Source: Leeuwenhoekiella aestuarii (GTDB lineage Bacteria > Bacteroidota > Bacteroidia > Flavobacteriales > Flavobacteriaceae). Taken from it: 64,000 nt of DNA. The position numbers were made by a program, and so were the translations under genes. Positions within the stretch are counted from its first letter, which is position 1, and every line of letters starts with the position of its first letter. The stretch lies in the NCBI RefSeq assembly GCF_004104055.1, contig NZ_QOVJ01000008.1:1-64000 (forward strand), in the 5' to 3' direction. The notes under the pieces are model-generated. The model ran no database searches and was not told the origin of the DNA. It saw only the letters and a list, made by a program, of their open reading frames with translations. Positions 13,084 to 64,000 of this stretch are shown one piece after another.

Positions 13084-14259
13084 TTGAATACACAAGATTT
13101 TAAGCGTGCTAAAGTATTAGCGGATCTTGATCTGGATTATCAAGAACTCAAAAGTGATTTTCAGGATTTAAGTATATTAGCTGCTAAAGTAGCCGGTACT
13201 GAGCTTTCTGAAGTAAATTTCATCGATAATTATACCCAATGGACGGTTGCCGGGTCGGCAGGCGAATTCAGTCAAAAACCCCGGGAGGCCTCTATTTGTA
13301 ATATTACTATAACCGAAGATCATCAATTTGAATCACGGGTAGATCTGGATCTCAGATTTAAAGACTCCAGCTATGTTCAAAAAGAAGGCTATAAATACTA
13401 TTATGGTATTCCCCTTAAACTTAATGATGAAATAGCCATAGGAACACTCTGTATTGGGGGAAAAACCATTGAAGACTTAAGTGAAAATCAGGTTGAGCAA
13501 TTGCATTTAATCGCCAAACAAATCGAGAAACAAATCCTTTTAAAACAAAAGCTACGCCTTGCACAAAAACAAGCTTTAGAAGAGCGGAAATTAAAAAGAC
13601 GTTTAGCGCACGATGTTAGGAGTCCGTTAAGTGGTATTGCTCAACTCATTGAACTTACCGATCACTCAAAAGAACATTATGAAGAACTTATAGACATCCT
13701 AAATCTCATTGCCTCCAGTACTACCAGCGTGTTACAGCTCGTTGAGGATATATTAAGTGTTGAAACAAATAAGTCTCCTTCAAATTTCGAAAGTGACTCT
13801 TTTTTCACGTTAGAAAGTCTTACCCAAAAGCTGATGGATCTTTACAGACCGCAGGCGCAGGCTAAAGACATTGAATTGAATTATGAATTTCAGCCCAATG
13901 CCTTAAAATTTTCGAGAAACAACTTACTTCCGATGATCGGTAATTTGATTTCTAATTCCATTAAGTTCACAGAAACCGGAGGTCAAATACACTTAAAATT
14001 AGAAATTGAACATACGCAAAACACTAACAATTTAAGTGTATTAGTCTCTGATACGGGTATTGGTATGTCTGCACAACAAGTAGATGATATAATCAATAAA
14101 AAAGCGACACACCGAACCGGTACATCTGGAGAAAAAGGCTACGGTATGGGCCTCGTATTTGTTATGCGACTTTGTGAAGAATTAGCGGGTAATTTCACTG
14201 TTGAGTCTAAACCTGAGGAAGGGACCCGTGTCAAATTAATTATTCCTTTAAAACAGTAA
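13084..14259 (+). CDS. Soluble GAF-domain sensor histidine kinase
   Basis: A 391-residue protein with an N-terminal GAF domain (about 20-155), a short coiled coil (about 155-175), the H-box RRLAHDVRSPLSG with its phospho-accepting His, the N-box MIGNLISNSIKF, and the ATP-lid motifs SDTGIGM and GYGMGLVF. No membrane segment is present, so the signal should be cytoplasmic. The start is a TTG: there is no ATG in frame before residue 250 or upstream before the stop at 13039. A -7 box 21 bp upstream supports this start. No response regulator is nearby, so it is an orphan kinase. It is separated from the SusC/D unit by a terminator. Confidence 0.85.
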   Translation: MNTQDFKRAKVLADLDLDYQELKSDFQDLSILAAKVAGTELSEVNFIDNYTQWTVAGSAGEFSQKPREASICNITITEDHQFESRVDLDLRFKDSSYVQKEGYKYYYGIPLKLNDEIAIGTLCIGGKTIEDLSENQVEQLHLIAKQIEKQILLKQKLRLAQKQALEERKLKRRLAHDVRSPLSGIAQLIELTDHSKEHYEELIDILNLIASSTTSVLQLVEDILSVETNKSPSNFESDSFFTLESLTQKLMDLYRPQAQAKDIELNYEFQPNALKFSRNNLLPMIGNLISNSIKFTETGGQIHLKLEIEHTQNTNNLSVLVSDTGIGMSAQQVDDIINKKATHRTGTSGEKGYGMGLVFVMRLCEELAGNFTVESKPEEGTRVKLIIPLKQ

Positions 14260-14262
14260 GTC

Positions 14263-14382
14263 ACTTCGGGGTATGCCTGTCTGCCGACAAAGGCAGGCCC
14301 GCTAAGCATTCAACTGAATCATAGAGTATTAGAACGAGACACATCTCGATGTATTTAAATCTCGATTATCGAGTAAAGTCAT
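14263..14382. repeat. Two-hairpin dispersed intergenic element
   Basis: Same order of blocks as 3309-3418: cacttcgggg, gcctg..caggc imperfect stem (14275-14298), aagcattcaactgaatc, a perfect stem cgaga-caca-tctcg (14335-14348) and a perfect stem ctcga-tta-tcgag (14361-14373), ending gtaaag. The first stem differs in sequence from the copy at 3372 but still pairs, which suggests the structure is what is kept. Confidence 0.6.
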
Positions 14383-14509
14383 TCATGAACAAAATGACTA
14401 GATGTATAAACACAACTCAAAAGTGATGGTAACCCGAAAATTTTAAGGCAATATGTATATAGGGAGTGTTGTATCTTACCTATAAAATCCGCTAAATACA
14501 AACAACACA

Positions 14510-15688
14510 ATGCCCAAAATTATAGGCTTATTATTAATTTTCTTTTTCTACAATCAAACCTGGGCTCAAGACCAAGGTTCAGATTTTTTGCAGGGTGCCT
14601 GGAAATTACATCAGCTAAAAGATGATAAAGTACATCAAGAATTCATCTTAAACTTTAAATACTCTGACACCTTTCACCGATACTTTGGTAATAGTTCAGT
14701 TTATGGAAGCATCACCACTTTAGACCATATCAATTTTGACGAGAAAGCAAAAACCCTCTCATTTTCAAGTCATATTAGAAAGGGTGAAGTTTTCAATTTA
14801 AAAATTGTAAACGAGAAATTTCAGGGGACATTCATTCGCGACAACCAAGAATTTAAATTAACCGGTTCTAAAATTGCTAAAACGAATTCTAATCCGGTTT
14901 TAGCGTATGGAAAATATCAAACAACTACCATCCCTGAAAATATTGATGAATTATATGTAGAGACTGGTAATACAAATTCTGAAATAGTAGTACTCTACGT
15001 GCAAGGTGGTCCGTTTGACAAGCTTCAATATACACAGGAATTTAATGCCTGGAAAAATGAGTTGCATATCGTATATGTGAAACAGGCTCAAATGATAAAC
15101 CCGTCTATCCTTCCTCCTGAAAATAAATTAACTTATGAAGATGCATTGAAAGAAAATTTAGTTTCAGTTGAAATATTAAAAAGACTCATAACTCATTTTA
15201 AAAAACAAAACAAAAAGGTATTGGTGTACGGAGAATCCTATGGGGCTTGGATAATCCAAAAATACATTGCTGAATTTGGCAACGAAGCAGATGCGGTAAG
15301 TATTTCTGCTGGCAGGCTTAATAAGGATCTAAAAATTTTGCAAGCCACAAAATTGAATCAAAAAGTGTATGACATAACTTATAAAAATGGCAAACGAATT
15401 TATACCGAAATGGACTTCACTTATTCAAAACCTAACGCGTATATGCTTTCTTCCATTAACAGTGAGATCTTTACCGAAACTTTAAAAGATAGAGACTTGT
15501 CGAAATTGGTTGTATACCAATACGGAAAAAAGGACGGAACAGTTGGACACCTGGACGATAATGAAATTGCATTTTTACAATCAAAAAATGTAGAGATAGA
15601 AGTTTGTAAAAAGTGCTATCACAGGCAAATGCTATCAGCTAAGATTGCCAACAAAGCTATTGAGAAAATGATAAAATTGGTCAAATAA
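14510..15688 (+). CDS. Secreted alpha/beta-hydrolase-like protein, function unknown
   Basis: A 392-residue protein with a signal peptide (about 1-20, NQTWAQ). Residues 25-130 look like a small beta-rich (lipocalin-like) domain beginning LQGAWKLHQL. From about 160 the pattern is that of an alpha/beta hydrolase: VVLYVQGGP (oxyanion region), a nucleophile elbow GESYG, an acidic residue in the YGKKDGT loop and a late His in CYHRQM. The order nucleophile-acid-histidine fits a serine hydrolase. Substrate is unknown. A weak -7-like box tatcttac lies at 14472-14479. The gene stands alone, before a region of decayed genes. Confidence 0.6.
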   Translation: MPKIIGLLLIFFFYNQTWAQDQGSDFLQGAWKLHQLKDDKVHQEFILNFKYSDTFHRYFGNSSVYGSITTLDHINFDEKAKTLSFSSHIRKGEVFNLKIVNEKFQGTFIRDNQEFKLTGSKIAKTNSNPVLAYGKYQTTTIPENIDELYVETGNTNSEIVVLYVQGGPFDKLQYTQEFNAWKNELHIVYVKQAQMINPSILPPENKLTYEDALKENLVSVEILKRLITHFKKQNKKVLVYGESYGAWIIQKYIAEFGNEADAVSISAGRLNKDLKILQATKLNQKVYDITYKNGKRIYTEMDFTYSKPNAYMLSSINSEIFTETLKDRDLSKLVVYQYGKKDGTVGHLDDNEIAFLQSKNVEIEVCKKCYHRQMLSAKIANKAIEKMIKLVK

Positions 15689-15740
15689 AATAATAGATAG
15701 GGTAACAATCCTATAAGTAATTGCTTATTCGCGCCTACTT

Positions 15741-15764
15741 CTGAAAATCCTCGCGGATTTTCAG
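15741..15764. repeat. Perfect 10-bp inverted repeat
   Basis: ctgaaaatcc-tcgc-ggattttcag. There is no T-run after it, so it is not a standard terminator, although its place 50 bp after a stop codon would fit one. It is followed by a stretch with attC-like words (gtttaac at about 15782 and gttgtgc at about 15824). Confidence 0.5.
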
Positions 15765-15846
15765 TTCGGTGTATATTTACAAAGTTTAACGCTAAGCTAC
15801 GCAACTACTCATAGCCGAGACAGTTGTGCATCATTTAAGAAACGGG

Positions 15847-15963
15847 ATGAAAACAAACTTTGAAATTAAAGAAAAGTATGCAGTCCTACTAAATGGAATT
15901 CATATTGACTTGCATAACAATTTTGAATCTAAAGAACTAACTGAATTTAAAAATTACGAATGA
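15847..15963 (+). CDS. Short open frame, 38 codons, probable gene remnant
   Basis: ATG at 15847, TGA at 15961-15963; the product is rich in Glu, Asn and Lys with no membrane segment. It begins at a normal-looking A-rich start but stops early, and what follows to 16150 contains no continuing frame. I do not recognise it. It could be a truncated cassette-type gene or a chance frame. Confidence 0.25.
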   Translation: MKTNFEIKEKYAVLLNGIHIDLHNNFESKELTEFKNYE

Positions 15964-16286
15964 ATGAAAATGAAACAACCTATACCAAATAACTAACTGG
16001 AATTAAGGTAGGTTCTGCTCCACTTCGATTCCGCTCAGTATAGCCTGAATACGATCAGAGTCACTAAAGGCTCTGCTTAACCGGGTATTAAGCGTGTACT
16101 CCGTAATTGACGGTTATAGAATAGCGTTGTTATTTGTGCGAAAAATAAAAACGATATAGAAAATAGTGATTGCCCGCTTTAGAGAAGACAATCCTAAGGC
16201 TATTAGGCGTGTATTGCGCCAGACTGCGGAACTGTCACCTAATTTCAATCTTATGAGGTGCCACATTTAGTGCTGGTGATTCTACC

Positions 16287-58767: not shown

Positions 58768-59598
58768 TCAAGCCTCATCCTGCCGCATCTTATATTCCAA
58801 CTTCAGGATCAGCTCTTCCAGAAACTTAGTTCTGCTTCCCTTTCGGGCTTTGATTTCCCCATACGTTTTATAAACCCCATCCAGCTTAACATTAAAAAAA
58901 TCTTCAAAAGAGGCCACTATCGTACTCAGGTCAGACAACCCATGATTTAAATATTGGGAGGCGTATAACGCATAAATAAGCTCGACTAAGGCAGTTTTAG
59001 ACCCCGACCAGAGCATCACATGATGCTTCTGAGGTAAATAAACAGCTTCACTACTCGGGTTTAAGGTCTTAAGCGCATCTCGTAGGTAATGAATAAGCCG
59101 GTACATCGCCTGCACTTGGGCCCAGAGCATATCGTGCGAACTGCTGAACTCAGCATAGTCATAATGGTACAGCATCGGGGTTATGGGAAAATTCTGCTGC
59201 GCATGGCGCGTAAAGAACTGATGATCCAGATAGGTATGTTCTTCTTCCATATACCGTACAAAATGCATATTGCGGTTAAAGAACTTATTGATCTTACGCA
59301 ACTCCTTTTTATAAAACCGGGTCTGAAAAGAAACTCCGGCCTTGGGTTTCCGCAGCTCACACGTGCGCATTTCAGTAAAATAGATGAGATAACTCATCGG
59401 GCAGGGTTTGAGATGCTTAAAAAAATGGATCTCCTGAGGCACATCTTCAAAATCTTCCTGCTCCACGAGCTCCTTGAGATTGACCAGAGTTTTAGATGCG
59501 ACTTCAATCCCCAATGCTGCTTTTTTAAGGGGTTCAGGTACTACGAATACCCGGGTGTTCAATTCTTGGTGAAAGTTGTGTAGCGCTGTAGCAAACAT
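58768..59598 (-). CDS. RteC-domain protein
   Basis: A 276-residue protein from the ATG at 59598; an in-frame TTG at 59649 is the only longer start. The family signature of RteC is clear: EIHFFKHLKPCPMSYLIYFT, RKINKFFNRNMHFVRYMEEE, TYLDHQFFTRH, EFSSSHDMLWAQVQAMYRLI, LMWSGSKTALVELIYALYAS and GEIKARKGSRTKFLEELILK. RteC was described as a helical regulator of excision of tetracycline-resistance conjugative transposons; chromosomal members are common in Bacteroidota and mostly uncharacterised. No transfer genes are seen here. It follows the AOS-GNAT gene after 92 bp on the same strand. Its 3' end is duplicated at 31 and 32 kb. Confidence 0.86.
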   Translation of the reverse strand: MFATALHNFHQELNTRVFVVPEPLKKAALGIEVASKTLVNLKELVEQEDFEDVPQEIHFFKHLKPCPMSYLIYFTEMRTCELRKPKAGVSFQTRFYKKELRKINKFFNRNMHFVRYMEEEHTYLDHQFFTRHAQQNFPITPMLYHYDYAEFSSSHDMLWAQVQAMYRLIHYLRDALKTLNPSSEAVYLPQKHHVMLWSGSKTALVELIYALYASQYLNHGLSDLSTIVASFEDFFNVKLDGVYKTYGEIKARKGSRTKFLEELILKLEYKMRQDEA

Positions 59599-59690
59599 GG
59601 TAACATCAGTTAGACAGGTGAGTACATAAGGAGGCAGATGTATGTTCAAAACACAGGATATATAGGGATAACCGGTTGGTTACTTAAACG

Positions 59691-62102
59691 TTAAACGGAG
59701 TGAGCCGTACGCATCATTTCTAAGTGCTCCAGAAGAAAATTATCGTCAGTTTGCACAAAGGCCTGTTTGGGAATAACAGTTGCCCCCAGTTTCCGCTTTT
59801 CAAAATTAGCACTCATCCCAAAGTCAACCTGCTTCATATCCAATTTCCGGGCTCTTAAAATGGTTTGATACAAGAGCTGCCTGTAGGTTTGAAATTCCTC
59901 AAGATACCGGTAATCCAAACCGATTAAACTGGGAACATAGGTGCCGGCATAATTTTTATAACAAAACATAACGCCCAGCAAGCGGTCATCGGCAACAGCC
60001 TTAAGCAGTATACATTCCCAATTGGGATGGGTACGCATCGCTTCAAATGCCTCAAGGGGATACGTAAAGGTGTTCAGGCCGTAATTCTTTGATTTAACCT
60101 GTAGATACAGCTGGTAGTAAGCTTTTATATTTTTACGGCTAACCCGTTGAACCACGTTAGAGTTGACCAGACTTAAATAGGGTTCAATAGCTTTCTTAAA
60201 ATGCTTTTGGGAACGTTTAGAAAGGTATTGCGTATAATCTGCGGCCTCTTTATCATGCAAATCCTGCAATACACAGCTATCGGGCATATCGATAGGGATG
60301 TATCCCTGATCCTGAATTGCTTTTGACCAGTTGTAATTCAGATCAAAATCCCGCAGTACGGTCATAGAAACCTTCCATGTATGTGCCAGGTTTTCAATAT
60401 ATTCCAGCAATTGGGTTAAGGCCAGTTCGACCTGTGGATGTGCTTCATTCAGGTACAGGTGGTTTCCTTCGGTAAACAAGCAGCCCAGAGACAGCACCCG
60501 GGAGGTCTGTACATAAGGATCGGCTTCGCGTTGCTTTTCCAGTTCTTGAGAAACCGAAGCCGGAGCCAGCATATCGTTTTTCCAGAGGCTTTCGGTTAAA
60601 AAAGTCACCAGTACGGGGCAGTTGGCGTCATCTACAATTTGTACATACCTAAAGCGCCAGTTGTGCTCCGGTTGTTGAGCCTGCGTAAAGCTTTGTTCCA
60701 GATAAGCCAGCCCATCCTGATTCAGCATATGGGTTGTTCCCAGCGTATAATCCCAGTGGGAGTAATCAGTCTCAGTAATGGTTTTAAATTCCTGAAGTTG
60801 TAAATCCTGATTATTGGTGGCAAAAGGTTTTAAAGCGGTAAGATCCATACCGAAGGCCTTCCCTACCCGGGAACGGGAATTGTGCGTAACCCACAAAGTG
60901 GTATCATAGTAGCGGACTAATTGCTCAACCAGATGATCAATATCATCCAATGCATTGTGATTGGAGAGGGTAATACGAAGTCCGGTATTTTTAGCAGGTA
61001 CCGCGGGAAATAAGCCCAGGTTTACATAAATACCTTCCTCCATCAGGCGTTTTACAAGATAATAGCCCGTAGCCGGCAGGCCCGTGCCTATATAGAATAC
61101 AGGAGAACTGTTACGCGCAATAAGCGGTAAATGTGCTTCAGCCAGCTGCTGATTGAAATAATCAATGCGGTTTTTAAGCGCTTCCTGCAACTGATAGATC
61201 TCGTCAGATAAATGAATATTTGCCGAGGCTATGGCTGCTCCTACCGCACTGGGTTCTAACTGGGCCGAGAAGGTTAATGGTCCCCCGAAGTTTTTGATCT
61301 GATTGTAAAACTTCTTATGTGAACAGACCAGAACGGAGCCCGACGCCCCAAAGCTTTTACTCAGGGTGCCGAATACCAAAACATGTTCCGGCAGGGTTTC
61401 CAGCTGACTCATCACATACCCCCTCCCATTTTTACCTTTCCAGCTCATGCCGTGTACATCATCAAAATACAGGTATAGCTGCGGGTATTTCTTAGAGAGT
61501 TCGATCAATTCCTTAACGGGGGCATAGTCCCCGAACATCGAGTACACCCCATCAGCCATATACCAGATTTTAGAAACTTTAGAAGAAAGTTTTTGGATCA
61601 GGCTTTCCAGCATTTCCAGATTGTTATGCCGTACGAGTTGTACCGGTATTCCCCGTACTTTAAGCAGCTGAGCAGCATTTTGCACGCTCCAGTGCACCTG
61701 ATGATCCAGGAGCACGGCATCTTCATCCCGCACCACCGTAGGGATTACCGCCAGATGGCCCAGGGTGCTGTTCTTGGTGATGATTACCGGGTTTTCAAAG
61801 AGCAACTCCAGCTTTTCTTCCAGTTCTTCATAGAGCGGGTGAGAGATATAGGTTTTCGATAGGGGGAATTGGGTACCGTAGCGCGAGATGGCCCGCACGG
61901 CCCCCATTTTGAGCCGGTTGTCCTGTTCCAGTCCCAGATATCCCGTATTCCCAAAATGATAACAGGCTTTTCCCTTTACGGTAAGCAATCGGCCGCTAAG
62001 CCGCGCATCTTCGGCACGCAAATGTACAATACCTTCAGCCTTGGCTTCGGTGATCACTTTAGCAACGGTATCCAGAAAATGGTTGTGTTTGATTTGAGCC
62101 AT
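59691..62102 (-). CDS. Bifunctional alpha-oxoamine synthase / GNAT-fold protein
   Basis: An 803-residue fusion. Residues about 30-400 are a PLP enzyme of the alpha-oxoamine synthase family (BioF, KBL, CqsA relatives): NTGYLGLEQDNRLKMGAV, LLDHQVHWSVQNA with the PLP-stacking His, LYFDDVHGMS (Asp214/215, His217) and FGTLSKSFGASGS with the PLP-binding Lys249. Residues about 430-800 hold a GNAT/FemAB-like acyltransferase region (QKHFKKAIEPYLSLVNSN, LKAVADDRLLGVMFCYKNYA, KQVDFGMSANFEKRKLGATV). It may condense an amino acid with an acyl-CoA and modify the product. Substrates unknown. Divergent from the 62335 gene across a region with operator-like repeats. Confidence 0.85.
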   Translation of the reverse strand: MAQIKHNHFLDTVAKVITEAKAEGIVHLRAEDARLSGRLLTVKGKACYHFGNTGYLGLEQDNRLKMGAVRAISRYGTQFPLSKTYISHPLYEELEEKLELLFENPVIITKNSTLGHLAVIPTVVRDEDAVLLDHQVHWSVQNAAQLLKVRGIPVQLVRHNNLEMLESLIQKLSSKVSKIWYMADGVYSMFGDYAPVKELIELSKKYPQLYLYFDDVHGMSWKGKNGRGYVMSQLETLPEHVLVFGTLSKSFGASGSVLVCSHKKFYNQIKNFGGPLTFSAQLEPSAVGAAIASANIHLSDEIYQLQEALKNRIDYFNQQLAEAHLPLIARNSSPVFYIGTGLPATGYYLVKRLMEEGIYVNLGLFPAVPAKNTGLRITLSNHNALDDIDHLVEQLVRYYDTTLWVTHNSRSRVGKAFGMDLTALKPFATNNQDLQLQEFKTITETDYSHWDYTLGTTHMLNQDGLAYLEQSFTQAQQPEHNWRFRYVQIVDDANCPVLVTFLTESLWKNDMLAPASVSQELEKQREADPYVQTSRVLSLGCLFTEGNHLYLNEAHPQVELALTQLLEYIENLAHTWKVSMTVLRDFDLNYNWSKAIQDQGYIPIDMPDSCVLQDLHDKEAADYTQYLSKRSQKHFKKAIEPYLSLVNSNVVQRVSRKNIKAYYQLYLQVKSKNYGLNTFTYPLEAFEAMRTHPNWECILLKAVADDRLLGVMFCYKNYAGTYVPSLIGLDYRYLEEFQTYRQLLYQTILRARKLDMKQVDFGMSANFEKRKLGATVIPKQAFVQTDDNFLLEHLEMMRTAHSV

Positions 62103-62186
62103 AGTAAAGAAGTTTGGTTATTTCAGATGAAAACTAACCAATTATTAATATGCTGAATGCCAGACCTTCCGGTTTACCTAAAAATA

Positions 62187-62264
62187 TTCCCTAATACTTT
62201 ACTTTTTATCCCTGAGACTTTAGTTTGAAAACAATGAGTTAAAAAAAAATCCCTCATACTTTAG
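62187..62264. promoter_or_regulatory. Three direct 16-bp operator-like repeats (divergent promoter region)
   Basis: ttccctaatactttac at 62187-62202, atccctgagactttag at 62208-62223 and atccctcatactttag at 62249-62264. All point the same way. Starts are 21 and 41 bp apart, i.e. two and about four helical turns, so the sites lie on one face of the DNA. Two more copies precede the gene at 63733. Direct, phased sites are typical of AraC-type activators, and one is encoded next door (62742-63650). Confidence 0.65.
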
Positions 62265-62334
62265 ATTAAATCCGTTACAACTAACTAATTAGAAGGGTTT
62301 TTTGATATTTTTATCCTACCAAAATATGTTCACC

Positions 62335-62715
62335 ATGCGTCCTGATTATGAAAACGCGTATGCTGAATATCGGATTAAAGCGGGAATCCTGTTTTTATAT
62401 TACAAACCCCAAGCCTGCCTAACCCTACACATAGCAGAACAGGTGGTACACGATCGTCTTGCCTTACAAACCGGCAAGGCTTATCCGGTATATTGCGATG
62501 TGCGTACTATTATTGACTCCGACAAAGAAGCCCGTGACTATCTCTCACGAATGGGTAATGATCTCATACATGCACTGGCGTTTCGGGTAAATTATCCCGT
62601 TTCAGAAGTGATGATGCAATTTTATTTAAAGAACGGCACAGGTAAAATCCCTACCCAATTGGTGGTCGACATACGATCGGCCTACTCCTTTTTAAAAAGC
62701 TACAGCAACCTCTGA
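62335..62715 (+). CDS. DUF7793-like (STAS-type fold) small cytoplasmic protein
   Basis: A protein of 126 residues from the ATG at 62335 (129 from the ATG at 62326; a TTG at 62302 lies before a -7-like box tattttta at 62306-62313 and is unlikely). The pattern YAEYRIKAGILFLYYKP, VVHDRLALQTGKAYPVYCDV, DKEARDYLSRMGNDLIHALA and KIPTQLVVDIRSAYSFLKSY fits the DUF7793 family, which resembles STAS domains. No membrane segment. It may bind or restrain the AraC regulator encoded 26 bp downstream; this is inference. Confidence 0.7.
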   Translation: MRPDYENAYAEYRIKAGILFLYYKPQACLTLHIAEQVVHDRLALQTGKAYPVYCDVRTIIDSDKEARDYLSRMGNDLIHALAFRVNYPVSEVMMQFYLKNGTGKIPTQLVVDIRSAYSFLKSYSNL

Positions 62716-62741
62716 TCCTTTAAGCTAACACCGCTTAAACT

Positions 62742-63650
62742 ATGAAACACTTAAACACACACGCCAAACAAATCAAAACGATGATCCTGGAGATGGCTAA
62801 GGGTAATTTCAATTACCGCATCCCCCGCACAGATCAAAACAGTGAGACCCAAGCCATTGCTGCCCTGCTCAATATGCTCGCGCAGGAGTTAGAAGTCTCC
62901 TATAATCCCTTTGTATTCAATGCGCCGGCCCACAGCATTTTTAACGTTGACCATTACCTCTTTTTAATCGATCCACAACACCGCATCCTGTCTACAAACT
63001 TTGACCTTGACACCGGGAGCCCCTTAGTCGATCAAAACTTTGCCCACGTATTAACGGAAGCAGCTCAACAAACCTTTAAAAAACGCTTAAAGACACTCCA
63101 AAAACAGCATCAGTCCCACATCCCCTGCAAACTCGAATTGCTGGCTGCCGATGACCTGCTGGTACCGCTGGAATGCACCCTCTTTAGATTGGACTACGAT
63201 GCGGTAGCGGGTAACTTCCTGGTGGTGGCTTCCCGCATTCAAAGCCACAACCCGTTGATCAAAGAAGACGATTTTATACAAGAAGACTATCCGGTACGCA
63301 AACTCGAGGTACTCAAGAACACGCAAGACATTCAAAACATTCAAAAAGTAAAAGCCTATCTCAGGGAGAACCCCGAGGTTCGCATAGCTTCTTTAAAACT
63401 GCTGGGGCTGCGTTTTGGGCTCAATGAATACAAGCTTAAAAAAGGCTTTAAAGAGCTTTACCAGACCAGTGTGTTTAAATACCAATTGAAGCAGCGCTTA
63501 TACAAAGCCCGGCATCTCATTCGCACGACAACAGATCAACTCTCCTGCATTGCGATTAAAACCGGATTTAAATCGTACATCCATTTTGGACAGGTCTTTA
63601 AAAAAGAATTTGGTGTTGCACCCAGTCATTACCGAAAAAAAAACAAATAA
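62742..63650 (+). CDS. AraC-family regulator with HAMP-like and PAS-like sensor part
   Basis: A 302-residue protein without membrane segments. Residues 5-50 (HAKQIKTMILEMAKGNFNYR) look like a soluble HAMP-type coiled coil; about 65-165 look like a PAS domain (HYLFLIDPQHRILSTNFDLD, PLECTLFRLDYDAVAGNFLV); about 200-302 form the AraC double helix-turn-helix (VRIASLKLLGLRFGLNEYKL, SCIAIKTGFKSYIHFGQVFK, KEFGVAPSHYR). It would sense a small cytoplasmic ligand. The 16-bp phased repeats at 62187-62264 and 63650-63686 flank it on both sides and are its likely operators. Confidence 0.85.
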   Translation: MKHLNTHAKQIKTMILEMAKGNFNYRIPRTDQNSETQAIAALLNMLAQELEVSYNPFVFNAPAHSIFNVDHYLFLIDPQHRILSTNFDLDTGSPLVDQNFAHVLTEAAQQTFKKRLKTLQKQHQSHIPCKLELLAADDLLVPLECTLFRLDYDAVAGNFLVVASRIQSHNPLIKEDDFIQEDYPVRKLEVLKNTQDIQNIQKVKAYLRENPEVRIASLKLLGLRFGLNEYKLKKGFKELYQTSVFKYQLKQRLYKARHLIRTTTDQLSCIAIKTGFKSYIHFGQVFKKEFGVAPSHYRKKNK

Positions 63651-63686
63651 TCCCTTAGGCTTTAGTTTCAATCCCGCATACTTTAC
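63650..63686. promoter_or_regulatory. Two direct 16-bp operator-like repeats before the MauE-type gene
   Basis: atcccttaggctttag at 63650-63665 and atcccgcatactttac at 63671-63686, starts exactly 21 bp apart, same orientation and same sequence type as the three sites at 62187-62264. They lie just upstream of a -7-like box taacttta at 63707-63714, so the second site would cover the -30 region, as expected for activation. Confidence 0.65.
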
Positions 63687-63732
63687 TGATTATCAGATAG
63701 ATAAAATAACTTTAACTCATAAAGTTTTTATC

Positions 63733-64000
63733 ATGTCTACAAGAAGACCTATCAAGCAAATTATAAGCCAGGGAGTAATAAGCTTCTTCATCCTGCTCTG
63801 GGTCTATGCCGCCACGGCTAAGCTGCTGGAGTTTGACCAGTTTAAAGTACAGCTAAGTCAGGTAAGCTTTCTAAAACCGATGGCCGGGATACTGGTCTAT
63901 ATCATCCCACTTGTAGAATACAGCCTTGCCGGCTTGTTGTTGGTATCCAAGACTCGTAGTATGGGGTTATTGGGTTCTGCATTAGTGATGAGCGTATTTA
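63733..64000 (+). CDS. MauE/DoxX-type membrane protein, cut by the window end
   Basis: The first 89 codons of a gene that runs past the window. The protein begins MSTRRPIKQIISQGVISFF and has hydrophobic segments at about 14-30, 51-70 and 76-89. FFILLWVYAATAKLLEFDQF followed by KVQLSQVSFLKP is the pattern of the MauE/DoxX family, inner-membrane proteins linked to redox or thiol maturation of exported proteins. The upstream operator-like repeats suggest control by the AraC protein encoded before it. Its length and the following genes cannot be seen. Confidence 0.75.
   Translation, partial: MSTRRPIKQIISQGVISFFILLWVYAATAKLLEFDQFKVQLSQVSFLKPMAGILVYIIPLVEYSLAGLLLVSKTRSMGLLGSALVMSVF

Follow-up and report, generated by a model that had tools for sequence, protein, structure and literature searches.

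Introduction

The half-sites of E. coli AraC are phased by 21 bp. A closely related case is XylS at the Pm promoter, for which the portion of the published account used here (PMC5481539) describes two 15-bp direct repeats, each with TGCA (box A) on its 5' side, GGTA (box B) on its 3' side and 6 bp between, and contacts to these boxes by recognition helices 3 and 6. Here, we describe a locus in a window of 64,000 nucleotides from Leeuwenhoekiella aestuarii (contig NZ_QOVJ01000008.1, positions 1 to 64,000), in which phased repeats flank the gene of an AraC-family protein. Like the Pm sites as described in that portion, these are direct repeats, in which each 16-bp unit has TCC on the left and CTTTA, or a sequence like GACAA, on the right, and the polarity of the half-sites relative to the helix-turn-helix (HTH) motifs is that of XylS. 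Unlike XylS, the word varies between loci, a PAS-like domain is the likely input in place of the benzoate-responsive domain, and the cassette has several pairs, a Bacteroidetes -7 promoter and a partner gene of predicted STAS fold. The mechanism is of a known kind, namely AraC/XylS direct-repeat regulation.

The proteins of the cassette also have described counterparts. The DNA-binding domain of the window regulator is predicted to have the fold of E. coli AraC and MarA (2k9s, Z 13.1; 1bl0, Z 12.8), from which it differs in its N-terminal part. The predicted fold of the DUF7793 protein is that of SpoIIAA and RsbS-type STAS proteins, but its identity to them is 10-12%, and we propose that it partners an AraC regulator instead of an anti-sigma factor. 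The enzyme encoded nearby, AOS-GNAT, is like alpha-oxoamine synthases (BioF, serine palmitoyltransferase, CqsA-like) in its Aminotran_1_2 domain and has profile matches to 8-amino-7-oxononanoate synthases and serine palmitoyltransferases; unlike them, it falls below the NCBIfam cut-offs and has a C-terminal part with a weak GNAT match. In the open-licence literature searched, we found no account of the operator code, the cassette, the PAS-AraC/STAS pairing or locus-specific words, and no mention of DUF7793 or DUF6520.

Results

Phased repeats flank the DUF7793 and AraC genes

The initial annotation had described five copies of one word at 62187, 62208, 62249, 63650 and 63671 on the plus strand, with spacings of 21, 41 and 21 bp, and all of these were borne out. 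It had missed a degenerate sixth copy at 62270, which completes a second 21-bp pair with site 3 and scores below the per-locus matrix threshold. The putative operator sites are as follows.

62187..62202, plus strand: site 1, distal pair, TTCCCTAATACTTTAC; its pair with site 2 is unique in the genome to this locus
62208..62223, plus strand: site 2, distal pair, 21 bp past site 1, ATCCCTGAGACTTTAG
62249..62264, plus strand: site 3, 41 bp past site 2, ATCCCTCATACTTTAG
62270..62285, plus strand: degenerate site 4, 21 bp past site 3, ATCCGTTACAACTAAC
63650..63665, plus strand: site 5, ahead of MauE, its first base being the last base of the AraC stop codon, ATCCCTTAGGCTTTAG
63671..63686, plus strand: site 6, ahead of MauE, 21 bp past site 5, ATCCCGCATACTTTAC

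Two related loci (L073 and L074) have two pairs ahead of DUF7793, with full copies at the position equivalent to 62270, and in L072 that position is occupied by a weaker form. Third sites recur at +40/41 or +49/50 in other loci when scored with the per-locus matrix.

The word had also been said to occur nowhere else in the window, which holds for ATCCCTNATACTTTAG at two or fewer mismatches. Allowing three gave nine matches, five at the sites themselves (0-2 mismatches) and four as isolated singles elsewhere (3 each), compared with a mean of 2.58 in shuffled windows, and none of 100 shuffles reached nine. Across the whole genome (30 contigs, 4.43 Mb), WTCCCKNANNCTTTAS was found exactly six times, at the five sites and as one single at C4:339123. 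At up to two mismatches it matched 964 times versus 641 for the reversed control, so a single word alone is not specific. The 21-bp-phased pair, allowed up to three mismatches, occurs at two places genome-wide, both here and both with 0 mismatches, and the reversed control pattern at one; the paired word is thus not common across the genome. A repeat-finding program run with its defaults missed these repeats, listing no direct repeat in either of the two regions.

The repeats lie in a recurrent cassette

To the left of the sites are the AOS-GNAT and RteC-family genes, and to the right are DUF7793, AraC, MauE and a gene for a small DUF6520 protein. Beyond DUF6520, an M16 peptidase, SusD and SusC are encoded on the opposite strand. 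The genes within the window are as follows.

58768..59649, minus strand: RteC-family gene, left end of the cassette (Pfam RteC E 1.8e-59)
59691..62102, minus strand: AOS-GNAT fusion enzyme, 803 aa (Pfam Aminotran_1_2 E 4.9e-28; Acetyltransf_6 E 0.0011, below cut-off)
62326..62715, plus strand: DUF7793 protein, 129 aa, predicted STAS fold (Pfam DUF7793 E 2.2e-36; 4xs5_D Z 13.0)
62742..63650, plus strand: AraC-family regulator, 302 aa, with N-terminal helices, a PAS-like domain and an AraC HTH (HTH_18 E 5.2e-17; model)
63733..64000, plus strand: MauE-family gene, 145 aa, extending beyond the window end (Pfam MauE E 8.9e-30, full gene in L042)

Among the genomes compared, the closest named relative is Leeuwenhoekiella palythoae (AOS-GNAT 85% identical). 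Nineteen further loci were taken from the same and related genomes by match to the AraC protein, and a collection of species genomes scanned with an AOS-GNAT alignment yielded 536 confirmed relatives, the best 80 of which were kept. By tblastn, all 19 loci encode DUF7793 and AraC; AOS-GNAT was found in 18 (not L074), MauE in 18 (not L086), SusC in 18, SusD in 17 and RteC in 13 (not L076-L079, L086 or L087). DUF6520 and M16 were each found in 7, and at some loci the M16 position is taken by a different long open frame. When 100 loci were compared, several of which stop at a contig edge, AOS-GNAT, DUF7793 and AraC occurred in this order in 89, with MauE as well in 68, and with SusD and SusC also in 64. 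Phased pairs were present in relatives with the same gene order.

The two parts of the cassette differ in how they resemble relatives, as seen when L042 is set against L072, L074 and L079. L042 and L072 are 74-86% identical in the left part (RteC, AOS, DUF7793, AraC) and 37-52% in the right, and L042 and L079 are 32-53% identical in the left part and 66-87% in the right (MauE, DUF6520, peptidase, SusD, SusC). These differing histories suggest recombination near the AraC/MauE junction. In L074 (G009:C2:165000-184999), no AOS-GNAT match was found in 20 kb, and RteC, DUF7793, AraC, MauE and the four sites ahead of DUF7793 are kept. A role as a defence system was also considered and dropped, since PADLOC gave no match for seven cassette proteins at E 0.001.

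Domains and predicted folds of the cassette proteins

The AraC protein has a double HTH of AraC type (Pfam HTH_18, 62.4 bits against a cut-off of 33.6). In its predicted model (pLDDT 85.8, pTM 0.46), the placement of the domains is uncertain because of the pTM. The model has N-terminal helices, to which a HAMP match is weak and below cut-off (E 0.0054), followed by a PAS-like domain that resembles 4hh3_B (Z 13.1, rmsd 2.7, 88 aligned) and an HTH domain that resembles 3oio (Z 15.4, rmsd 1.5, 105 aligned). As in other AraC/XylS systems, the putative operators are arranged as direct repeats with a spacing of about 21 bp, close to the promoter that they would serve, with one half-site per HTH as judged from statistical co-variation only.

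We predict that DUF7793 has a STAS fold. Its model (pLDDT 87.4) superimposes on 4xs5_D (rmsd 2.2, 110 aligned) and on RsbS 6jhk_A (Z 11.4, rmsd 2.6, 110 aligned). STAS chains fill the top 17 rows of the fold search (Z at least 9.8), and other folds, such as CtpA proteases, appear from Z 9.8 down. AOS-GNAT has an AOS-like domain of PLP fold-type I, and its C-terminal part matches Acetyltransf_6 weakly (19.6 bits against a cut-off of 22). Twelve NCBIfam families matched it, all below their cut-offs (best NF005697, 276.6 of 342 bits), so that it does not qualify as a member of a named equivalog (BioF, serine palmitoyltransferase and others).

The 21-bp phase is conserved among relatives

We compared the region from AOS-GNAT to DUF7793 in 92 of the 100 loci, which all contain DUF7793 and differ from one another between AOS and DUF7793; 84 of them have an AraC call. 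A repeat was counted as strong if at least 12 positions of a 15-base window matched at a given lag. Strong repeats at lag 21 were present in 47 of the 92 loci, compared with 11 for the next-best lag (40) and with 2.8% of 460 random pieces of the same loci at 12/15 or better. When the loci were thinned at 60% AraC identity, leaving 42 clusters, lag 21 remained strong in 22 clusters, and the next-best lag in 4. Behind AraC, a lag of 21 at 11/15 or better was found in 24 of 84 loci (next lag, 8), and all 25 adjacent spacings between per-locus matrix sites, scored with no spacing rule, were 21 bp. At the per-locus matrix threshold, 36 of the 92 loci lack a TCC-phased pair.

Elsewhere between the genes of these loci, too, lag 21 ranked first, reaching 12/15 or better in 5.2% of 478 intergenic stretches, versus 1.2% for other lags. 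Degenerate 7-bp repeats account for many of these cases and additional site pairs for a few; the excess in the control stretches is partly due to the 7-bp repeats. Degenerate 7-bp tandem repeats (such as GTGATTA and GTTATGA) raise lag-21 scores in L136, L154, L163, L170 and others.

Three loci in which no AraC HTH was found and the contig continues (L124, L165 and L168) have no pair, with best scores of 10, 8 and 8 of 16. Their lack of a pair agrees with AraC as the reader, although such loci are few. The AraC frames of the Flavivirga loci L128 and L138 lie farther downstream, and these loci have no pair by this measure (9 and 10 of 16). In L128, two tandem AraC-HTH frames occur at 14163-16027 (AraC-forward orientation), and no phased pair was found ahead of DUF7793. 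Kilobases downstream of DUF7793 in L106, L131 and L167, more phased pairs of the family word precede other genes, and the regulon may thus be larger in some relatives.

Half-sites co-vary with the recognition helices of AraC

The window AraC has Tyr230 in the first recognition helix and Gln284 in the second, which we take to be the positions of Trp42 and Arg96 of MarA. Among rows without a gap at residue 230, this residue is Tyr, Phe, His, Asn or Arg at 71 loci, of which 52 have a phased TCC pair and 19 have the TCC-type helix without one; it is Thr or Ser at 12 loci, none of which has such a pair. In the test of half-site against HTH, the non-N[ED] group gave 0 of 11 with L112, whose AraC row is truncated there, left aside. 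Where residue 284 is Arg or Lys (49 loci), position 9 of the site is G in 87 of 98 copies; this falls to 1 of 14 where the residue is Gln, Leu or Trp (7 loci). For this count the left-half-only rule chose the second, weaker pair in L042 and L072; sites 1 and 2 of L042 likewise have C at position 9. The right half that accompanies Gln284 in the window is CTTTA. L085, the second cassette of genome G006, also has Gln284 but with HFSQ, and its sites are less regular.

Fisher tests on these associations ignore relatedness among loci. Mantel tests were run on 51 loci, and on 34 for those with RteC. Given AOS distance, the partial correlation with the left half was 0.448 for HTH1 and 0.251 for HTH2, and with the right half 0.381 for HTH2 and 0.138 for HTH1. 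With the other HTH also taken into account, the left half kept its correlation with HTH1 (0.391) and the right half with HTH2 (0.359), compared with 0.083 and -0.021 for the crossed pairs. Distances of DUF7793 gave partial correlations of 0.126 with the left half and 0.218 with the right, and in the RteC subset its value for the right half was 0.272 versus 0.291 for HTH2. This is as expected of a co-inherited neighbour, and DUF7793 might also have a causal role. That the repeats are AraC operators, as first proposed, is thus favored by the sequences, with the refinement that each half-site co-varies with one HTH.

Each cassette carries its own word

For 54 loci, we scored the region behind AraC with the locus's own word and with the words of the other 53. 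The mean z of the own word was 1.04 and that of its reverse 0.06; in 5000 permutations a value as high as 1.04 never arose. The median rank of the own word was only 8 of 54 because close relatives share words. A second cassette in the same genome (L090, G000:C2:1-19999) encodes an AOS-GNAT 79% identical and an AraC 24% identical to those of the window, and its word is GACTNTNNNGTCATGC. Phased pairs of that word at up to three mismatches occur at exactly two places in the genome, both inside the L090 cassette; no SusD or SusC match was found in its 20 kb.

We also scanned 13 genomes of the genus with the window-type pair. At up to two mismatches it was found in cassettes of G000, G010, G003 and G009, whose regulators carry HF[GA]Q, and as one unlinked match in G012. 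At up to three there were 17 matches in 9 genomes, versus 7 for the reversed control. The initial annotation had not noted that words are specific to loci, that a second cassette of the genome has another word, or that phased pairs are confined to the cassette. The words change together with the DNA-reading helices of the regulator, so that every cassette seems to have a switch to itself, and because the word has diverged between cassettes, paralogous regulators within one genome should not cross-talk.

Candidate promoters and target operons

The portion of PMC6847099 used here gives TANNTTTG as the -7 consensus of Flavobacterium johnsoniae. Candidate -7 boxes in the window are as follows.

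63707..63714, plus strand: MauE operon, TAACTTTA, +19 after the proximal site
62306..62313, plus strand: DUF7793-AraC, TATTTTTA; a sequence match whose spacing is not significant after thinning
62129..62136, minus strand: AOS-GNAT, TAGTTTTC on the minus strand; a sequence match whose spacing is not significant after thinning

On the MauE side, 50 matches to a -7-like box over 43 loci included 18 at +9 and 18 at +19 past the proximal site. These two spacings, one helix turn apart, were found in 10 and 5 of 18 clusters after thinning, with a null maximum of 4. The spacings of +20 on the DUF7793 side and of +40/41 and +51 on the AOS side looked conserved in the full set. After thinning, they were found in only 3 clusters, against a shuffled null with a mean of 2.3 and maxima of 5 and 6, and are not relied on for that reason.

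AraC had been proposed to control its own operon, the enzyme gene and the MauE operon, and the three parts of this proposal fared differently. The MauE spacing survives thinning, the others do not, and L074 keeps its sites in a stretch with no AOS-GNAT match, so we rank the MauE operon first, DUF7793-AraC next and AOS-GNAT last. Control of the MauE operon is the best supported, by the fixed spacing to the candidate -7 box, and control of the regulator's own operon comes next. Control of AOS-GNAT is plausible but weaker, because of its thinned spacing and L074. An inverted repeat (AACTTTA..TAAAGTT) spans the MauE start at 63707-63735, and in several other loci an inverted repeat CATATC..GATATG at the MauE start includes the start codon.

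Discussion

The conserved phase, the co-variation of HTHs and half-sites, the failure of RteC to add to it (see below) and the separate word of the paralogue lead us to conclude that the adjacent AraC protein very probably reads these sites. We hold it highly probable that the repeats are operators of this protein, with a monomer at each 16-bp site and phased pairs that most likely activate. The first HTH of a monomer would read the left half (TCC) and the second HTH the right half, which is CTTTA here; most relatives that have TCC sites carry GACAA or GATAA instead. Spaced 21 bp apart, or two helix turns, two monomers would occupy one side of the helix next to the -7 region. Their most likely effect would be activation of two operons, MauE-DUF6520 and the DUF7793-AraC operon that encodes the regulator itself, and the distal pair may also serve the divergent AOS-GNAT promoter. 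The AraC protein is probably dimeric through its N-terminal part. Input probably comes through its PAS-like domain, and the DUF7793 protein of predicted STAS fold, encoded in the same operon, is likely to act as a modulator. The cassette would then be switched on when the PAS-like domain, perhaps together with the STAS protein, is in the right state. We think it rather improbable that, beyond this, AOS-GNAT makes an amino-ketone- or lipid-like signal sensed by a STAS-gated PAS domain of AraC, in parallel cassettes with orthogonal words and exchangeable cargo (MauE, the small secreted DUF6520 protein, the peptidase and SusD/SusC).

Other readings of the repeats can be weighed against activation by AraC. 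Repression and looping are known for E. coli AraC, and the two pairs with a 41-bp gap in the divergent promoter region would permit repression or looping here too. The proximal site, however, lies 9 or 19 bp upstream of the MauE -7-like box, a position from which an activator would stand in for the -33 element, and we consider it unlikely that the protein binds but mainly represses or loops at the AOS-GNAT/DUF7793 region. Binding by the RteC-family protein instead of AraC would fit the facts that RteC is a family of regulators, that its gene adjoins AOS-GNAT in 63 of 100 loci by a position rule and that, with AOS taken into account, the left half varies with RteC distance (correlation 0.208, p 0.002). 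Once both HTHs are also taken into account, the correlation is 0.027 for the left half and -0.201 for the right (34 loci), and phased pairs are present in L076-L079 and L087, where the fetched stretch has no tblastn match to RteC. Absence was judged by tblastn because a strict position rule overstates it, missing RteC in L082, L083 and L085, where tblastn finds it. Since RteC adds nothing beyond the HTHs and loci with no tblastn match to RteC in the fetched stretch keep their pairs, we reject it as the site reader and regard this reading as very improbable.

The repeats might also not be protein sites at all, having arisen by simple-repeat drift or as an RNA element, and some Flavobacterium intergenic stretches do contain degenerate 7-bp repeats that score at lag 21. 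Such repeats account for part of the control excess and not for the sites, which have the same word in two separate regions, co-vary with the AraC helices and are not reproduced by the reversed-word control. An RNA element was rejected because an Rfam search of 62000-63900 gave no match up to E 1. We find an origin of either kind scarcely credible, and retain the reading of the repeats as AraC operators.

Read in this way, the sites would provide an operator code, with one half-site per HTH, for a family of regulators found with this cassette in many Flavobacteriaceae. The natural replacement of Arg or Lys by Gln, Leu or Trp at the second-helix position, with matching changes in the half-site, would make AraC specificity directly testable. 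Finally, the two words in one genome would constitute a natural pair of candidate orthogonal regulators for Bacteroidetes.
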